Positions 57,942 to 63,619 of a stretch of 64,000 nucleotides of DNA are shown here, piece after piece. Each line of letters opens with the position of its first letter. Position 1 is the first letter of the stretch. The stretch spans positions 379,501-443,500 of the forward strand of contig NZ_CP124576.1 in the NCBI RefSeq assembly GCF_000281715.2, given 5' to 3'. Both the position numbers and the translations under genes were made by a program. Below the pieces are notes generated by a model that saw nothing but the letters and a program-made list of their open reading frames with translations, searched no databases and had not been told where the DNA came from. The stretch comes from Sphingobium sp. AP49 (GTDB taxonomy: Bacteria > Pseudomonadota > Alphaproteobacteria > Sphingomonadales > Sphingomonadaceae).

Positions 57942-58694
57942 TCACAGCCGCTCGCGCCAGCGGAAGACGTCGGAGAAGCTGATGAGCCCGTCGAAGAGCG
58001 CATAGAGGATGAGCGAGGCGCGGTTGCTCGTGTCGTAGCGGTCGCGCGCTTCCTTCAGATGCTGGATCACCGTTTCCTTGCTGATGCCCAGGATCCTGGC
58101 GATCTCCCAATTGGTCTTGCCGCGCGCTGCCCAGAGCACGCAGTCGCGCTGCCGGTCGGTGAGTCGGGGCTTCTTTGCCGTGCGGCACCATCCGGACAGC
58201 CGGCTCGCCTGGGCGATCGCGATGGCGCCCAATATGTCGGCGATGGCGAGCATCCGCTCGGGGAGCGGGCGATCGGCACCCGTGACGAATGTGCAGCTGC
58301 CGGTGACTGTGCCAGGCAGGTGACGCGGGACCGTAAAGCCATCGACCATGCCATGTCTGCGCCCGGTCTCGAACGTGACCCGCTCGATCGGCGTCATGGG
58401 TATGAGCGCTTCGATATCGCGCCACCGAAAGCCCGACAGGCTGCTCTCGCCAGCCCTTCGGACCGGGTCGGTATGAGCGAGGTTGAAACCGATATAAACG
58501 TCCGCCCAGCTGGGCGGATAGCTGTGGAGAAGCATCGATGTCCCGCTAGGACCGCCAAGGCCGACCTCGACGCTGAGGGCGAAGCGATCGAACCCCAGCG
58601 CGAGGGCGATCCTGTCCATTGCCTCGTGGAGGGCGTCTGCCGACAGGGCACGAATGATGGTCTGACTGAGCGTCTCTATCTGTTCATGGTACAT
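57942..58694 (-). CDS. luxR: LuxR-family AHL-responsive regulator
   Basis: About 250 residues from ATG 58694; the frame is open further upstream without homology. The N-terminal autoinducer-binding domain has the usual W, Y and D positions (YPPSWADVYIGFNLAHTDPV, PVRRAGESSLSGFRWRDIE). The C-terminal LuxR/GerE HTH is LTDRQRDCVLWAARGKTNWE, IARILGISKETVIQHLKEAR. It is encoded just upstream of luxI in the same direction, the classical partner layout. The region upstream has an 18-bp palindrome that may be an operator. Confidence 0.92.
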   Translation of the reverse strand: MYHEQIETLSQTIIRALSADALHEAMDRIALALGFDRFALSVEVGLGGPSGTSMLLHSYPPSWADVYIGFNLAHTDPVRRAGESSLSGFRWRDIEALIPMTPIERVTFETGRRHGMVDGFTVPRHLPGTVTGSCTFVTGADRPLPERMLAIADILGAIAIAQASRLSGWCRTAKKPRLTDRQRDCVLWAARGKTNWEIARILGISKETVIQHLKEARDRYDTSNRASLILYALFDGLISFSDVFRWRERL

Positions 58695-59282
58695 GACTTC
58701 GGATCTGCGTCCATGGCGGCGGGCCCAACCCGTTCCGCCATGAAGGCGCCCTTTCCCTGGCTCGGGCCGTTGGCGATGTCCCTCACGCCGCGCCGCAAGC
58801 GTTTCTGTCTGCCTCTGGCTGCAACCTTCTCCCTGCTCGCTGAAGGACTCTTCCGGTCTGCGGCGCAACTCTGCCCGAATGACCGGGGGTTTCAAGACAG
58901 ATTTGTGACAGTCGCCGATTGAGGGGAGGTCTGCCGGCCCGGCCATGCCCGGCCGCGCTCTATCCCGATCCTGATCGGGACCCAGCCCCCTTTGGTCTGG
59001 GCCTGCCGGTGACGATCCCTTCCGCAGGATGAGGGGGGCTGCGGTCGCCGCGCGAGCGCGGCGGCGTCGGTCTGGCCGCTTCCTCTCAAAATCGGGAGTG
59101 GCCGGCGCTCCCTGCTAGGCGCGTCGCGGCCGGCGGCAAGCTGCTGCGCAGCTGCTCCATTGCCATTTCGCCCTGACGGTGCCGCCGCCCGCTCGAGCGC
59201 GCCTCTCCGCTCGCACGCTGCCGCCCACCCCCGCTTTTGCGCGGAAGCGGCTGTTGTGAGGTTCAAGAGCAGGAGGTTAATC
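58695..59282. other. Divergent region between luxR and ardC with strong hairpins
   Basis: About 590 bp between luxR (minus) and ardC (plus) without gene. It holds three inverted repeats: TCCCGATC-ct-GATCGGGA at 58963-58980, CGCCGCGC-ga-GCGCGGCG at 59046-59063, and AGCTGC-tgc-GCAGCT at 59139-59153. ardC has AGGAGG before its ATG. Leading-region antirestriction genes of conjugative plasmids can use folded single-strand promoters, so these stems deserve attention. Confidence 0.5.
58963..58980. promoter_or_regulatory. 18-bp palindrome, candidate operator
   Basis: TCCCGATC-ct-GATCGGGA is a perfect inverted repeat of the size of a lux box, 268 bp upstream of luxR. It does not match the classical lux-box sequence closely. 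It could serve luxR, ardC or neither. Confidence 0.35.
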
Positions 59283-59942
59283 ATGCGTGGCAAGACCAGC
59301 GCTGATGCGCGCGGCGCAAGGAACATGTCGGATCGGGCCAGCCTCTATGATGAGGTGACCAGCCGGATCATCGGGGAACTGGAAGAGGGGCGTCTGCCAT
59401 GGGTCCAGCCTTGGGGGAACGGGGCGGACCTTGCCCCCGGCCTGCCATGCAATGCCCTTACCGGCCGCGCCTATTCGGGCGTCAATATCCTCATTCTCTG
59501 GTCCACCGTGATCGAGCGGGAATATCCCTCGCAGGGCTGGCTGACCTTCAGGCAGGCGTTGAGCGCAGGCGGTCAGGTGAAGAAGGGCGAGAAGGGCACC
59601 ACCGTCGTTTATGCCGATCGTTTCATCCCACAGGCCGAGCGGGACAAGGCGCGGGCCGGCGAGGAGGCCAAGGCCATTCCCTTCCTCAAGCGCTTTACCG
59701 TCTTCAATGTCGCGCAGTGCGAGGGACTACGACCGGGGCTGCTGCCTGATGTTGTGCCCGTGCCCGAGCGCGAGGCCATCCCCTTTGCCGAGGCGGTGAT
59801 TGCAGCCAGTGGCGTCGAATTCCGGATCGGGGGCGACAAGGCCTATTATGCGCCTGCGGCTGACTTTGTCGCGGTGCCGCCGCAACAGGCCTTTTTCGAG
59901 CAGATCAACTATTATCGGACCTGCCTGCACGAACTGACCCAT
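59283..59942 (+). pseudogene. ardC antirestriction gene, 5' part (interrupted by RIT element)
   Basis: The first 220 codons of an ArdC-like protein. The N-terminal DUF1738 ssDNA-binding domain is recognisable (SLYDEVTSRIIGELEEGRLPWVQPW, then NALTGRAYSGVNILIL, GGQVKKGEKGTTVVY). The zincin motif begins (YYRTCLHELTH) and is cut after the second His. The frame then runs into the inserted element and ends at 60257. Joining codon 220 to 63314 gives HELTH-ATGHSSRLARN, a normal ArdC zinc site. ArdC protects incoming plasmid DNA from restriction. Confidence 0.9.
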
Positions 59943-59969
59943 AATGCCGTGATCCGGATTATGCCGCAT
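59939..59969 (+). repeat. Left inverted repeat of the RIT element
   Basis: 31 bp, identical in inverted orientation to 63253-63283. It starts CCATAATGCCG and ends TTATGCCGCAT, and overlaps the duplicated GACCCAT by four bases. A further CGGCATAA lies at 60017-60024. Confidence 0.9.
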
Positions 59970-60024
59970 GGCTTCCGCTGGAAGCCGGTTTTCCGGGCAT
60001 CGGCCATGCGGCTATTCGGCATAA

Positions 60025-61017
60025 TCAGAGCCCTTCCAAGAACGCGAGGAGTTGATCGTCGGGCCGGAACCGGCCTGACGGAGTGGGCGGAGCCGCGACG
60101 CGAGCGAGCGCTTTCTCCTTCATCCGCATGTCGGCGTGGATGTAGATCTGGGTGGTCTCGACGTTCTCGTGACCAAGCCAGAGCGCGATCACCGCTGGAT
60201 CGACGCCGTGGTGAAGCAGGTCCATCGCCGTGCTGTGGCGCAGCGTATGCGGCGTGACCCGCTTCGTGCCGATGCTCGGACACGCGCGCGATGCCGTGAG
60301 GCAGTGCTTACGCACCAGATGTTCGAGCGCATCGCGGCTCAGCCGTTCGCCCCGGATCGACGGGAACAGCGGTCTGCTCTCATCCTTGTCGTTGCCGATC
60401 CACGCCGCCAGCATCTTGCCCGTCTCGCGGCGAAGAGGGGTGGCGCGCTCCTTCCGCCCCTTGCCCATGCAGCGGATGTGCGCGCCGTTTCCGAGCACGA
60501 CATCGCCGCGCGTGAGGCCGACCAGTTCGGATGCCCGGAGGCCGGTCTGAACCGCGAGCAGCAGCAGCGCATGATCGCGCCGCCCCGCCCATGTCGTGCG
60601 GTCCGGCGCTGCCAGCAATGCCGCCATTTCGTCGGCGTCGAGGAACGTCACCGTGCGCTTCACATAGCGCTTGTTCGGCATGGCGAGGATGCGCTGGCAG
60701 TGCAGCAGCCAGGTCGGATCGCTCATCGCCACGTAGCGGAAGAACGAGCGGATCGCGGCGAGCCGGGTGTTGCGGCTGCGCGCGCTGTTGCCACGCGTCG
60801 TCTCGGTATGGACGAGGAAGTCGGCGACCAGATCGGCGTCGATATCCTCGACCGTGAGCCTGACCGGCGGCTTGCCGTGGCGAGCGCTCGCATATCGGAG
60901 CAACAGCCGGAACGTGTCGCGATAGCCTGCGACCGTATGACGGCTCGCCTCCATCTGGACGCACAGCCGGTCGGTGAAGAAGCGCTGGATCAGCGCGGGC
61001 AAGGCAACCGCGCTCAT
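60025..61017 (-). CDS. ritC: Tyrosine recombinase RitC of the RIT element
   Basis: A 330-residue tyrosine recombinase with SAM-like N-terminal DNA-binding domain and complete catalytic set: Arg in TGLRASELVGL, Lys in GKGRKERATPLR, HxxR in HTLRHSTAMD, His in LGHENVETT and Tyr in TTQIYIHAD. Third gene of the trio; start overlaps the ritB stop by 4 bp. Gene name follows the RIT convention by position and size. Confidence 0.88.
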   Translation of the reverse strand: MSAVALPALIQRFFTDRLCVQMEASRHTVAGYRDTFRLLLRYASARHGKPPVRLTVEDIDADLVADFLVHTETTRGNSARSRNTRLAAIRSFFRYVAMSDPTWLLHCQRILAMPNKRYVKRTVTFLDADEMAALLAAPDRTTWAGRRDHALLLLAVQTGLRASELVGLTRGDVVLGNGAHIRCMGKGRKERATPLRRETGKMLAAWIGNDKDESRPLFPSIRGERLSRDALEHLVRKHCLTASRACPSIGTKRVTPHTLRHSTAMDLLHHGVDPAVIALWLGHENVETTQIYIHADMRMKEKALARVAAPPTPSGRFRPDDQLLAFLEGL

Positions 61018-61955
61018 TGGACTGCCTCCCGGCCATCGGCTGTTGCTCGCGCCATCGCCAGATCGAGCAGTTCCGGGACCGCTTCCAGATACCAGTATGT
61101 GTTGGAGGGATCGCTATGGCCCAGATAGGTCGTCAGCCGGATCATCTCGCGAGCCGGGTCTTTGCCCGTGCGATACCAACCGATCATCGTCTTCACCGCG
61201 AAGGTGTGGCGAAGGTCGTGGATGCGCGGCCCGCGACCATGCTTGCAGTATGGCTGATGAGCCCGAAGCCCGATCTGCTGGCAAGCCCGCGCGAAGTTGT
61301 AGCGGGCCGCGCAGTCGGTGAGCCTCGTCCCCTTGTCTGTGACGAACAGCGGCTTGGCCAGATGGCCGAGCAGCCGGTCGCGTTCGGCAAGATAGTCGAT
61401 CAACGTCGCGACGACGCTCGGATCGAGCGGCAACAACCGCTCTTTGCCGAGCTTGCCCTGCCGGACGCGCAGCACGCCATGATCGGTATCGAGGTCATCA
61501 CGATCGAGCCCGAGCGCCTCGTTGATCCTCAGGCCCGTGACCGCTATCAGCCCGAACAACGTCGAGCAGGTCAGCCCGCGCAGGCCGTAGATCGATGGCA
61601 GCGTTTCGGCCGCTGCGATGATCGACCCGATCTCGGCATCAGTGTAGATATGCGGGCGCGACCGCTGGAAGCCTCCCGGCAAGAGGCCGCGCGGCGGCGG
61701 TTCGTGCCCCGGATCGAAGCTGCTCAGCCACTGCGCGAACAGCCGCACGACGCTGAGCCTCGCCGCTCGCGTCGATGGGCAGGCTTCGGCCAGTGTGGCG
61801 TGCCAGCGCAGGAACAGCGCCGTATCGATATGAACGGCACCTTCGCGGTCGGCGAACCGGGTGAAGCGACGCAAGATGCGCTCGCTGGTGCCAAGGTCGT
61901 AACCGAGGCTGCGGCGAACGCTCAGATAGCGGTCGAGCTGGGAGGCGAGGCTCAT
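61014..61955 (-). CDS. ritB: Tyrosine recombinase RitB of the RIT element
   Basis: A 313-residue tyrosine recombinase: Arg in TGLRINEALGLD, Lys in GKLGKERLLPL, HxxR in HDLRHTFAVK, His in LGHSDPSNT and Tyr in YWYLEAVPE. All catalytic positions are present. Second gene of the trio; ATGA overlaps at both ends couple it to ritA and ritC. Confidence 0.88.
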   Translation of the reverse strand: MSLASQLDRYLSVRRSLGYDLGTSERILRRFTRFADREGAVHIDTALFLRWHATLAEACPSTRAARLSVVRLFAQWLSSFDPGHEPPPRGLLPGGFQRSRPHIYTDAEIGSIIAAAETLPSIYGLRGLTCSTLFGLIAVTGLRINEALGLDRDDLDTDHGVLRVRQGKLGKERLLPLDPSVVATLIDYLAERDRLLGHLAKPLFVTDKGTRLTDCAARYNFARACQQIGLRAHQPYCKHGRGPRIHDLRHTFAVKTMIGWYRTGKDPAREMIRLTTYLGHSDPSNTYWYLEAVPELLDLAMARATADGREAVQ

Positions 61956-63163
61956 TGCGCGCCTCCCGCCACCGGCCAGGGCTGCGCGACCGACCGCAGT
62001 CCGTCGATGTCGAGCCGGGCATATATCATTGTCGATGATCGGGAGCGGTGCCGCAGCACGTCGCCCACTTCGTCGAGCGACGCGCCCGTATTCACGAGCT
62101 GGGTGGCAAGGCTATGACGCAGAAGGTGCGATCCCACATAGGGCGTCGCCGGCTTCTTGCCGGTCGCCTTGAGGGCATCCTTGAGGATGGCGTTGACGAT
62201 CTGCCCATCCTTGAACGGGCGATGCGGCGCGCGATGGGCGACGAACATCGTGCGGCAAGCCGCCGGTCCTCGCTCCTCGCGAAGATAGCGGCTCAGCGCG
62301 TCGCCGACCTCCACCGTGATCGGCAGGCGGTCGTGCAGCTTGCCCTTGCCGCGCACCGTAAGCTCGCCCGAGCGCCAGTCGATGTCGTCGAGCTGGATCG
62401 CAATGACCTCGGCCGCGCGCAGGCCAAGCCGGGCCATGAGCAACAGCATCGCATAGTCCCGCGCGCCGTGACGGGGATTGTCGCGCACGCAAGCCAGCAC
62501 TGCCTCGACGCCTTCCGGCGACAGGTGGCGCGGCAATCGCGCTCCCCAGACCTTCGCCGTCTTCGGCACGCTCAGCGCCAGATTGGTCGCCGTGGCCCCG
62601 CAGCCGAACAGATATTGAAGGAAGATACGGACATGGGTGGCGACCGTCTTGTCGCGACGGGCGGTGGTCAGCACATGTTCCATGAAGCCGATCACGTCGG
62701 CGGGACGCAGGCTGCCCGGATCGATTATCGTCTCGCCGAAGCGATCGTCGAGGAAGCGGCGCGCGAAGCCTATCGTATGGGGGATGCTCCGCGGACTGAG
62801 GCCGCGCTGTTTGACGAGATAGGTCTCGAAGTCCGCCAGCAGTGTCGCGCGCGCCTGCTGCACCTCGGTCAATGGCACCGGCTGCGTCACGCCGATATCG
62901 AGCAGATGCTGCGCGAAGCGACGGGCCAACTTATACGGCCATGCCGTGCCCGCATGCTTGCGCGGCACTTTGCGGCCCACCTGCTCGGCCATGTCGAGGG
63001 TCAACGCCGGAGGGTCGATCCCCTCAGCATCCATCACGTGGCCCACTTTCCGCAGGATCCATCGATAGGCATTGATCGTGGCGGGTGTGTAGTTCTCCGC
63101 CGCAAAACTCTCGGCGAACGAGTCCAGATAAGGCTCGATGCTGGTCTGCAAATATTGAGGCAT
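61952..63163 (-). CDS. ritA: Tyrosine recombinase RitA of the RIT element
   Basis: About 403 residues from ATG 63163 (GGAG 10 bp upstream); an earlier in-frame start at 63226 would lie close to the element's end repeats. A SAM-like N-terminal domain (about 75-170) precedes the catalytic domain with Arg in LGLRAAEVIAI, Lys in GKGKLHDRLP, HxxR in HLLRHSLATQ, His in VLRHRSRSS and Tyr in TMIYARLD. First and largest gene of the trio. Confidence 0.87.
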   Translation of the reverse strand: MPQYLQTSIEPYLDSFAESFAAENYTPATINAYRWILRKVGHVMDAEGIDPPALTLDMAEQVGRKVPRKHAGTAWPYKLARRFAQHLLDIGVTQPVPLTEVQQARATLLADFETYLVKQRGLSPRSIPHTIGFARRFLDDRFGETIIDPGSLRPADVIGFMEHVLTTARRDKTVATHVRIFLQYLFGCGATATNLALSVPKTAKVWGARLPRHLSPEGVEAVLACVRDNPRHGARDYAMLLLMARLGLRAAEVIAIQLDDIDWRSGELTVRGKGKLHDRLPITVEVGDALSRYLREERGPAACRTMFVAHRAPHRPFKDGQIVNAILKDALKATGKKPATPYVGSHLLRHSLATQLVNTGASLDEVGDVLRHRSRSSTMIYARLDIDGLRSVAQPWPVAGGAQ

Positions 63164-63252
63164 GATCGTCGTGCTCCATGTCGTTGGAGCGACGAAGATT
63201 ATGCCGAATGGGATTGGCGCGATCATACTGCCAACCGCGCGCTGCCGATCAG

Positions 63253-63283
63253 ATGCGGCATAATCCGGATCACGGCATTATGG
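63253..63283 (-). repeat. Right inverted repeat of the RIT element
   Basis: Perfect inverted copy of 59939-59969. It lies 23 bp inside the right junction copy of GACCCAT, unlike the left copy, which abuts it; the extra DNA is a palindrome at 63286-63307. Confidence 0.9.
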
Positions 63284-63285
63284 CC

Positions 63286-63307
63286 CTTATGCCGATATCG
63301 GCATAAG
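63286..63307. repeat. 22-bp palindrome at the right end of the RIT element
   Basis: Perfect palindrome built of CTTATGCCGAT and its complement, so TTATGCCG and CGGCATAA face each other. The last G is the first base of the right GACCCAT. It probably is a recombinase-binding site. The left end has no equivalent palindrome. Confidence 0.8.
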
Positions 63308-63313
63308 ACCCAT

Positions 63314-63619
63314 GCGACCGGCCATTCCTCCCGGCTGGCGCGCAATCTGGTGACCCAGTTCGGCAGCCGCGATTATGCGCGGGAGGAACTGATCGCCGAA
63401 ATGGGGTCCGCCTTCCTTTGCGCGGCGCTGGGCATCGTGCCGACCGTGCGTCATGCCGACTATATCGGGTCATGGCTCGAGGTGCTGCGCGAGGATAATC
63501 GGGCCATCTTCCGCGCCGCCAGCGCCGCAAGCAAGGCGGCCGACTGGTTGCTTGCCCGGCACGAGGAAGCAGGCGCCGACGCGATCGATGCCACGGCGCA
63601 GGGGAGGATCGCAGCATGA
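63314..63619 (+). pseudogene. ardC antirestriction gene, 3' part
   Basis: The remaining 101 codons of ardC: ATGHSSRLARN completes the zinc motif, followed by YAREELIAEMGSAFLCAALG and DYIGSWLEVLREDNRAIFRA as in ArdC zincin domains. It has no start of its own. With the 5' part it would make a protein of 321 residues, a normal ArdC length. Its stop overlaps the next gene by 4 bp. Confidence 0.9.

Follow-up and report, generated by a model that had tools for sequence, protein, structure and literature searches.

RIT elements have been known since 2009, and to our knowledge no mode of movement has been established for them. In published descriptions, for example those of the elements of C. metallidurans CH34 and C. 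necator pHG1, three recombinase genes that overlap by four to eight bp fill about 3.5 kb between ends that consist of an inverted repeat of about 28-34 bp plus a palindrome (PMC3414803). The CH34 elements are inserted in radC and IS66 tnpA, which are genes of other mobile elements (PMC2864759). RitA is described with two core-binding domains and RitC with an extra C-terminal helix (PMC8138268), and a paper from 2012 asks how three recombinases share a four-strand reaction (PMC3414803). According to these accounts, mobility 'remains to be experimentally demonstrated' and there is 'sequence variation at the ends' (PMC3414803, PMC2864759); a table in a review of strand-biased circularizing elements (SEs) lists target specificity, empty site and movement of RITs as not tested (PMC10214605). 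The present analysis deals with a RIT element that interrupts an ardC gene, ardC1, in a window (the whole stretch of DNA analysed) of 64,000 nucleotides from Sphingobium sp. AP49 (contig NZ_CP124576.1). Comparison of this copy with its relatives suggests that the element very probably moves as a circle with two spacers, which are relayed from one target to the next while the element reverses its orientation.

Other systems share single features with this element. The circle of an SE carries 6 bp beside its left end, and upon insertion the carried 6 bp appear at the right junction and the 6 bp of attB at the left; a 6-bp footprint is also reported for Tn554 (PMC10214605). SEs are further marked by strand bias and by circularisation that leaves no empty site. 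In integrons, attC acts as a folded single strand whose central spacer stays unpaired, and recombination is confined to the bottom strand (PMC2727003). Integron cassettes are mobilised by IntI at attC/attI. The window element has the features of RITs, namely three overlapping genes with catalytic motifs, an inverted repeat plus palindrome, and identical copies in one genome; the HExxH target in ardC, the spacer relay and the reversal go beyond described RITs. It follows the same 6-bp footprint and fingerprint rule as the SEs; however, SEs have IntA, Tfp (without catalytic motif), IntB, Srap and one joint, attS (PMC10214605), whereas the RIT element has three catalytic recombinases, two predicted joints around a palindrome and an alternating orientation. 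By every feature tested in its sequence, the element is thus a RIT, SE-like in the 6-bp rule and yet not an SE. GInt islands and Tn554 likewise have several tyrosine recombinases acting together, with a different gene content, and no palindromic two-joint design was seen in the accounts consulted for either (for GInt, only a reference-list entry of PMC5385486). The likeness to integron cassettes, an attC-like folded site, is proposed by analogy; unlike them, the RIT element has no integron platform, encodes its own recombinases and targets a motif in a chromosomal or plasmid gene.

Two copies in one genome and the origin of their spacers

The element interrupts ardC1 at HELTH|ATGH, within the zinc-binding HExxH core, and is bounded by copies of GACCCA(T). 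Along the target, the order is the N-terminal part of ardC, spacer N, core E, spacer I, palindrome P, spacer C and the C-terminal part of ardC (Table 1). The genome, one contig of 4,506,188 bp, holds a second copy at C1:4308885-4312235, the core of which shows 0 mismatches to that of the window copy over 3,337 bp. This copy interrupts ardC2 at the same motif (HELGH); E is turned round with respect to ardC, and P has changed sides. On the genome plus strand, copy 1 reads CTGACCCAT-E-ATGGCCC-P-GACCCATGCGACC and copy 2 reads CCAGTGGCCC-P-GACCCAT-E-ATGGCCCAGCTCATG; the inner spacer of each copy is the outer spacer of the other. To judge from their letters, the two copies are one circle, E-ATGGCCC-P-GACCCAT, opened at either spacer. 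An N-terminal protein search detected no ardC other than these two, 59283-63619 of the window and C1:4308859-4312840, both of which are interrupted, and no intact ardC in the genome.

Relatives were drawn from plasmids, from genomes of the genus and the family, and from a RitC scan of genome contigs (56 loci). A RitA match was present in 12 of 94 genus genomes; the 397 family genomes added no multi-copy genome beyond those known, and 242 genomes of the genus Bradyrhizobium gave four with one RIT copy each and no new multi-copy genome. A script located the ends of E and P in 102 loci, of which 72 were readable at both ends with at least 40 bp of flank (left out were 22 in which one end could not be located and 8 truncated where the element ends). 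Exactly one 20-nt P was present in 67 of the 72, left of E in 34 and right of it in 33, while P stood on both sides in two of the remaining five and on neither by the 20-nt test in three. These five comprise L021, with P on both sides, L113 and L116, which read N-E-N, L134, with a different second palindrome, and L137, with a single 19-nt palindrome. Removal of 11 duplicate records left 56 distinct single-P insertions, in 54 of which the N-side flank ends in HExxH; L150 and L151, which do not, are members of a group that has a different target. The label ardC-type refers to the HExxH motif, Pfam having been run on the window ardC and one other target, and several others are so annotated. With three later plasmid copies, the set of distinct insertions amounts to 57, in which the two orientations number 29 and 28.

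When different insertions in the same target gene were compared, N was equal in 10/11 pairs (8/9 without duplicate records) and C in 0/11 (0/9). Uninterrupted alleles agree with N in the same manner: CGGCCA in Sphingobium pCHQ1 and 2pYBL2-2 (L236, L237) equals N of insertions with ATGTCA and GGGGCA as C, GGCGCA in Bradyrhizobium CW1 and 187 (L238, L239) equals N of insertions with CGTGCA and CGTACA as C, and GATTCA in G683 (L205; 95% identical to the G208 target) equals N of an insertion with GACCCA as C. GACCCA itself stands at the corresponding position in 16/36 uninterrupted ardC sites of native relatives. Because both the pairs and the native alleles match N and not C, the comparison shows N to be the target's own 6 bp and C to be brought by the element. 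The spacers thus have three sources as read from these comparisons: N is the target's own, C is that of the incoming element, and I is kept from before, being the record of an earlier target. N and C agree partially, at 2.26 of 4 variable positions against a null of 1.5, which makes some homology preference likely; a match of N and C required by homology was ruled out, as full identity is not needed.

The origin of the spacers also alters how the ends of the window copy are to be drawn. The preliminary description had placed the element between 7-bp direct repeats GACCCAT, which are indeed present at 59936-59942 and 63307-63313; they are not an ordinary target duplication, since the flanks are identical in only 15 of the 57 distinct insertions (counting L148, where P has an irregular boundary and the C 6-mer is misread). 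Flanking 6-mers are seldom identical because the E-side 6-mer belongs to the target and the P-side 6-mer to the donor. The perfect 31-bp inverted repeat was found at 59939-59969 and 63253-63283, and its intrinsic part shrinks to 27 bp plus the invariant T/A, as the outer CCAT/ATGG letters belong to spacers that agree by chance. The palindrome at the right end is present, and its length of 22 bp includes one spacer base per side, the true P being 20 bp. Unequal ends are likewise a property of the window copy and not a fixed asymmetric pair, since P always lies on the C-terminal side of ardC, whichever way E is turned. Copies of the element elsewhere with different ends had been named as a refutation; the second copy does differ literally, with P on the opposite side, and as aligned here this is a permutation of one circle and not a wrong boundary.

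Spacer relay, reversal and a probable circle with two joints

According to the relay rule, the circle leaving copy i has N_i at the side used and I_i at the other, and recipient copy j shows these as C_j and I_j. The rule was tested within the ardC group on nine genomes or strains that have two to four copies each of one element (23 copies, 20 pairs). Relay links were present in 13/20 within-genome pairs, where a tree of hops allows at most 14. When copies were reassigned among genomes, 1.11 links arose on average (maximum 7), and within-genome shuffles of the spacers averaged 2.03 (maximum 8); neither reached 13 in any of 20,000 trials. N differs from C in 12/13 donors, and the alternative rule, that C is carried, links only the symmetric pair of the window genome (G000). 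All 13 directly read links reverse the orientation, which at a chance of one half would occur about once in 8,000; reversal as a trivial product of the link rule was ruled out, since the test admitted same-side links and turned up none. Every link seen retains its donor copy, and the cores have 0 mismatches in 18/20 compared pairs, the other two differing by one base in length. Three-step chains were read in Sphingobium MI1205 (L098 to L066 to L097), Tardibacter (L069 to L071 to L070) and G208 (L165 to L166 to L167), and a further chain extends across two Acidiphilium strains (L012, L249, L013). On a plasmid of A. tumefaciens CFBP6625, one copy reads C-P-E-P-C (L021), with C-terminal halves of ardC at both flanks, and another N-E-N without P (L250), with N-terminal halves at both; these are apparently products of exchange between two opposed copies, i.e., an inversion, and their inferred parents add a link (14 of at most 15). 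Left out of the test were several plasmid records with more than one place and genomes G718, G720, G729 and G733, whose second RitC matches are 51-66% identical and therefore belong to other element types; L012 and L014 of A. cryptum, being different elements, were not treated as a pair.

The proposed circle has two recombination sites and the order E-I-P-N-E, in which the ends of E would meet across the 20-bp P with a 6-bp spacer on each side; the target is the DNA encoding HExxH in ardC. At the next hop, spacer N would be carried along as the new inner spacer and the old I site used for integration, by which the old I would be left as spacer C and the element would land in the opposite orientation. 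The cuts made by tyrosine recombinases fall, on each strand, at the 5' edge of the spacer. At excision, the recombinases may exchange only the strand that reads from ardC-N to ardC-C, giving a circle with N, as proposed for SEs; at integration, exchange of the opposite strand would give N from the target and C from the donor. If the circle is single-stranded, only its I site would have the polarity for the second exchange, so that the orientation would have to alternate, and strand-specific exchanges on such a circle would thus yield all of the relay rules. The terminal repeats of the single-stranded circle would pair, P would form a hairpin, and I and N would lie opposite each other like the unpaired central spacer of attC. 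The joined 88-nt junction folds into a 31-bp stem, a small internal loop and the P hairpin with -50.0 kcal/mol, compared with -8.6 kcal/mol (standard deviation 2.5) for mononucleotide shuffles, and the terminal repeats resemble each other more closely within an element than across elements (25.2 vs 22.1 of 27). Since this fold and this likeness also fit plain binding sites, a single-stranded folded step is given an even chance. The most far-reaching form of the proposal, in which RITs are single-stranded-circle transposons whose repeats and palindrome fold into an attC-like double-stranded site, whose polarity forces a turn at every hop and whose spacers are a rolling record of targets, falls a little short of that.

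The same circle and relay might instead proceed through a double-stranded circle, the fresh junction of which is temporarily unusable, being heteroduplex, nicked or protein-bound, so that the older site is used next. This is the main rival, and we consider it plausible though clearly under one half in probability: it accounts for the same relay, and SE circles are reported to be double-stranded (PMC10214605), but it needs an added rule for the 13/13 reversals and for the carriage of N only, as a free choice of site gives reversal in about half of the hops. A conventional insertion that duplicates 7 bp of its target and keeps fixed, asymmetric ends, as drawn previously, has GACCCAT on both sides of the window copy in its favor and is nevertheless highly improbable, because the flanking 6-mers differ in 42/57 insertions, native alleles agree with the N side alone in those cases in which N differs from C, and P switches side between identical copies; fixed ends are already refuted by the second copy, unless a later rearrangement moved P at each other locus. 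We likewise find it hard to believe that homologous recombination or gene conversion between resident elements, and not the recombinases, spread and permuted the copies. Such exchange does occur, as in the C-P-E-P-C and N-E-N copies of CFBP6625 and the N-E-N loci L113 and L116 from metagenomes, but it can neither create new insertions at the same base of different ardC genes nor give a directed relay of 6-mers outside an identical core.

Several points weigh against the proposed circle and relay. The circle, the strand and transposition are predictions from sequence comparison, and distant RITs were read by eye only. With the spacers kept and the orientation randomised, a mean of 7.01 links remains and 4 of 20,000 trials reach 13. 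With N equal to C in both of its copies, the G000 link is symmetric and shows no direction, and S. baderi, with two unconnected chains, lacks one of the 14 possible links. As to the origin of N, the G216 ortholog of ardC2 (93%) has GGGTCA where copy 2 has GGGCCA, a one-base disagreement, and N differs within the L094/L157 target pair. Finally, any single strand that holds a perfect inverted repeat and a palindrome will fold, and the calculated fold of the junction therefore does not show folding in the cell.

The ardC1 locus and its relatives

The preliminary description of a RIT element with ardC as its target is confirmed by PF00589 in RitA, RitB and RitC and by Pfam matches in both halves of ardC (Table 1). 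The three rit genes, all on the minus strand, overlap by 4 bp at ritA/ritB and at ritB/ritC, and the R, K, HxLRH, H and Y motifs, i.e., all of the catalytic residues expected, were found in the three proteins by pattern search (the RitC tyrosine by eye). Annotated ritA homologues, e.g., in L011, measure 1,212 bp, which would put the ritA start near 63163. There is no fourth conserved gene within the 3.3-kb core E, and the three Rit proteins score far under the cut-offs of NCBIfam integron models. Scripted removal of 59943-63313, which is one circle length (3,371 bp), restores an ardC frame reading HELTHATGHSSRLARN with its sole stop at the end, as had been foreseen; intact ardC genes of relatives carry HELTHATGH, and L050 is an example of an uninterrupted relative with nearly the same letters at the site (CATGAACTGACCCATGCGACCGGCCAT). 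The expectation that target and boundary would inform on the RIT mechanism was borne out. The open reading frame adjoining ardC1 (57942-58946, minus strand) resembles a LuxR-type regulator when read by eye.

Table 1. Positions, in window coordinates, of the parts of ardC1 and of the RIT element that interrupts it
Feature	Position	Strand	Evidence or remark
ardC1, N-terminal part up to spacer	59283..59935	+	Pfam ArdcN 2.7e-40, MPTase-PolyVal 1.3e-15 on 59283-60257
Spacer N, GACCCA, read as the target's own 6 bp (footprint)	59936..59941	+	sequence; native relatives
Left terminal inverted repeat of E (ritC side), preceded by invariant T (59942)	59943..59969	+	
Core E, 3,337 bp	59943..63279		0 mismatches vs second copy
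ritC, 330-aa tyrosine recombinase	60025..61017	-	PF00589 1.2e-37, PF02899
ritB, 313-aa tyrosine recombinase	61014..61955	-	PF00589 1.4e-18
ritA, up to 424 aa, start uncertain	61952..63226	-	PF00589 5.5e-26
Right terminal inverted repeat of E (ritA side), followed by invariant A (63280)	63253..63279	+	
Inner spacer I, TGGCCC (GGGCCA in ardC sense), equal to the second copy's outer spacers	63281..63286	+	
Palindrome P, TTATGCCGATATCGGCATAA, 20 bp	63287..63306		
Spacer C, GACCCA, read as donor-derived (fingerprint)	63307..63312	+	
ardC1, C-terminal part	63313..63619	+	Pfam MPTase-PolyVal 4.5e-31 on 63302-63619

Some relatives differ in target, ends or gene content. Loci L149-L154 form a group in another target, with the palindrome TTATGCCGAATTCGGCATAA seen in L149-L151; Pfam gave no match in the four open reading frames tried for the target gene of the L150/L151 group. 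L108 (G657) has 6-bp repeats GCCGCG and a slightly imperfect palindrome, and its target gene is presumably an IS66 transposase. Inspection by eye shows one palindrome beside one terminal repeat in RITs of Sinorhizobium (next to an IS66 gene), Phaeobacter (with an HExxH-type flank) and Rhodococcus; in L201 (Rhodococcus opacus pLPS8), the element lies in an ATPase-like gene and has a 26-bp palindrome at one terminal repeat only. The ends of the distant plasmid RITs L199 and L200 (Aromatoleum, Cupriavidus) were too rearranged to parse, the best repeat in L200 being a 401-bp duplication. The flanks of L116, one of the two N-E-N metagenome contigs, are nearly the same, and rearrangement or assembly may explain both L113 and L116.

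Cargo is present in several elements. The three copies in G208 (L165-L167) have an E of 13,398 bp with about 10 kb of cargo, including a C39-type ABC transporter, an HlyD-type protein, a 1,481-aa protein with RTX calcium-binding repeats and a protein with an EryCIII-like C-terminal domain; PADLOC matches of the transporter to mad3/mad8 were taken as generic ATPase matches. Smaller cargo, in open reading frames after ritA, occurs in Sphingobium MI1205 (L066, L097, L098), and the elements of Rhizobium anhuiense T24 (L251, L252) carry a 3-methyladenine glycosylase, a TetR-type regulator and an alkene reductase, as annotated on L251.

Meaning for RIT elements

In the literature searched, neither a spacer relay nor an ardC target nor a reversal was described for RITs, though Ricker 2013 and Nielsen 2017 may contain part of this; the two-joint circle with alternating orientation, as predicted here, would be new. 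The relay would explain the published variation at RIT ends. As the target codons encode the essential zinc-binding motif, the host gene cannot easily change the target of the element. The spacer relay yields the direction of movement, a target rule and an orientation rule from sequence and predicts exact junctions, which makes it a first testable rule for the movement of RIT elements. If the folded single-strand site is real, attC-like chemistry would not be unique to integrons, and if the two spacers are a rolling record, donor and recipient would be nameable from sequence alone.

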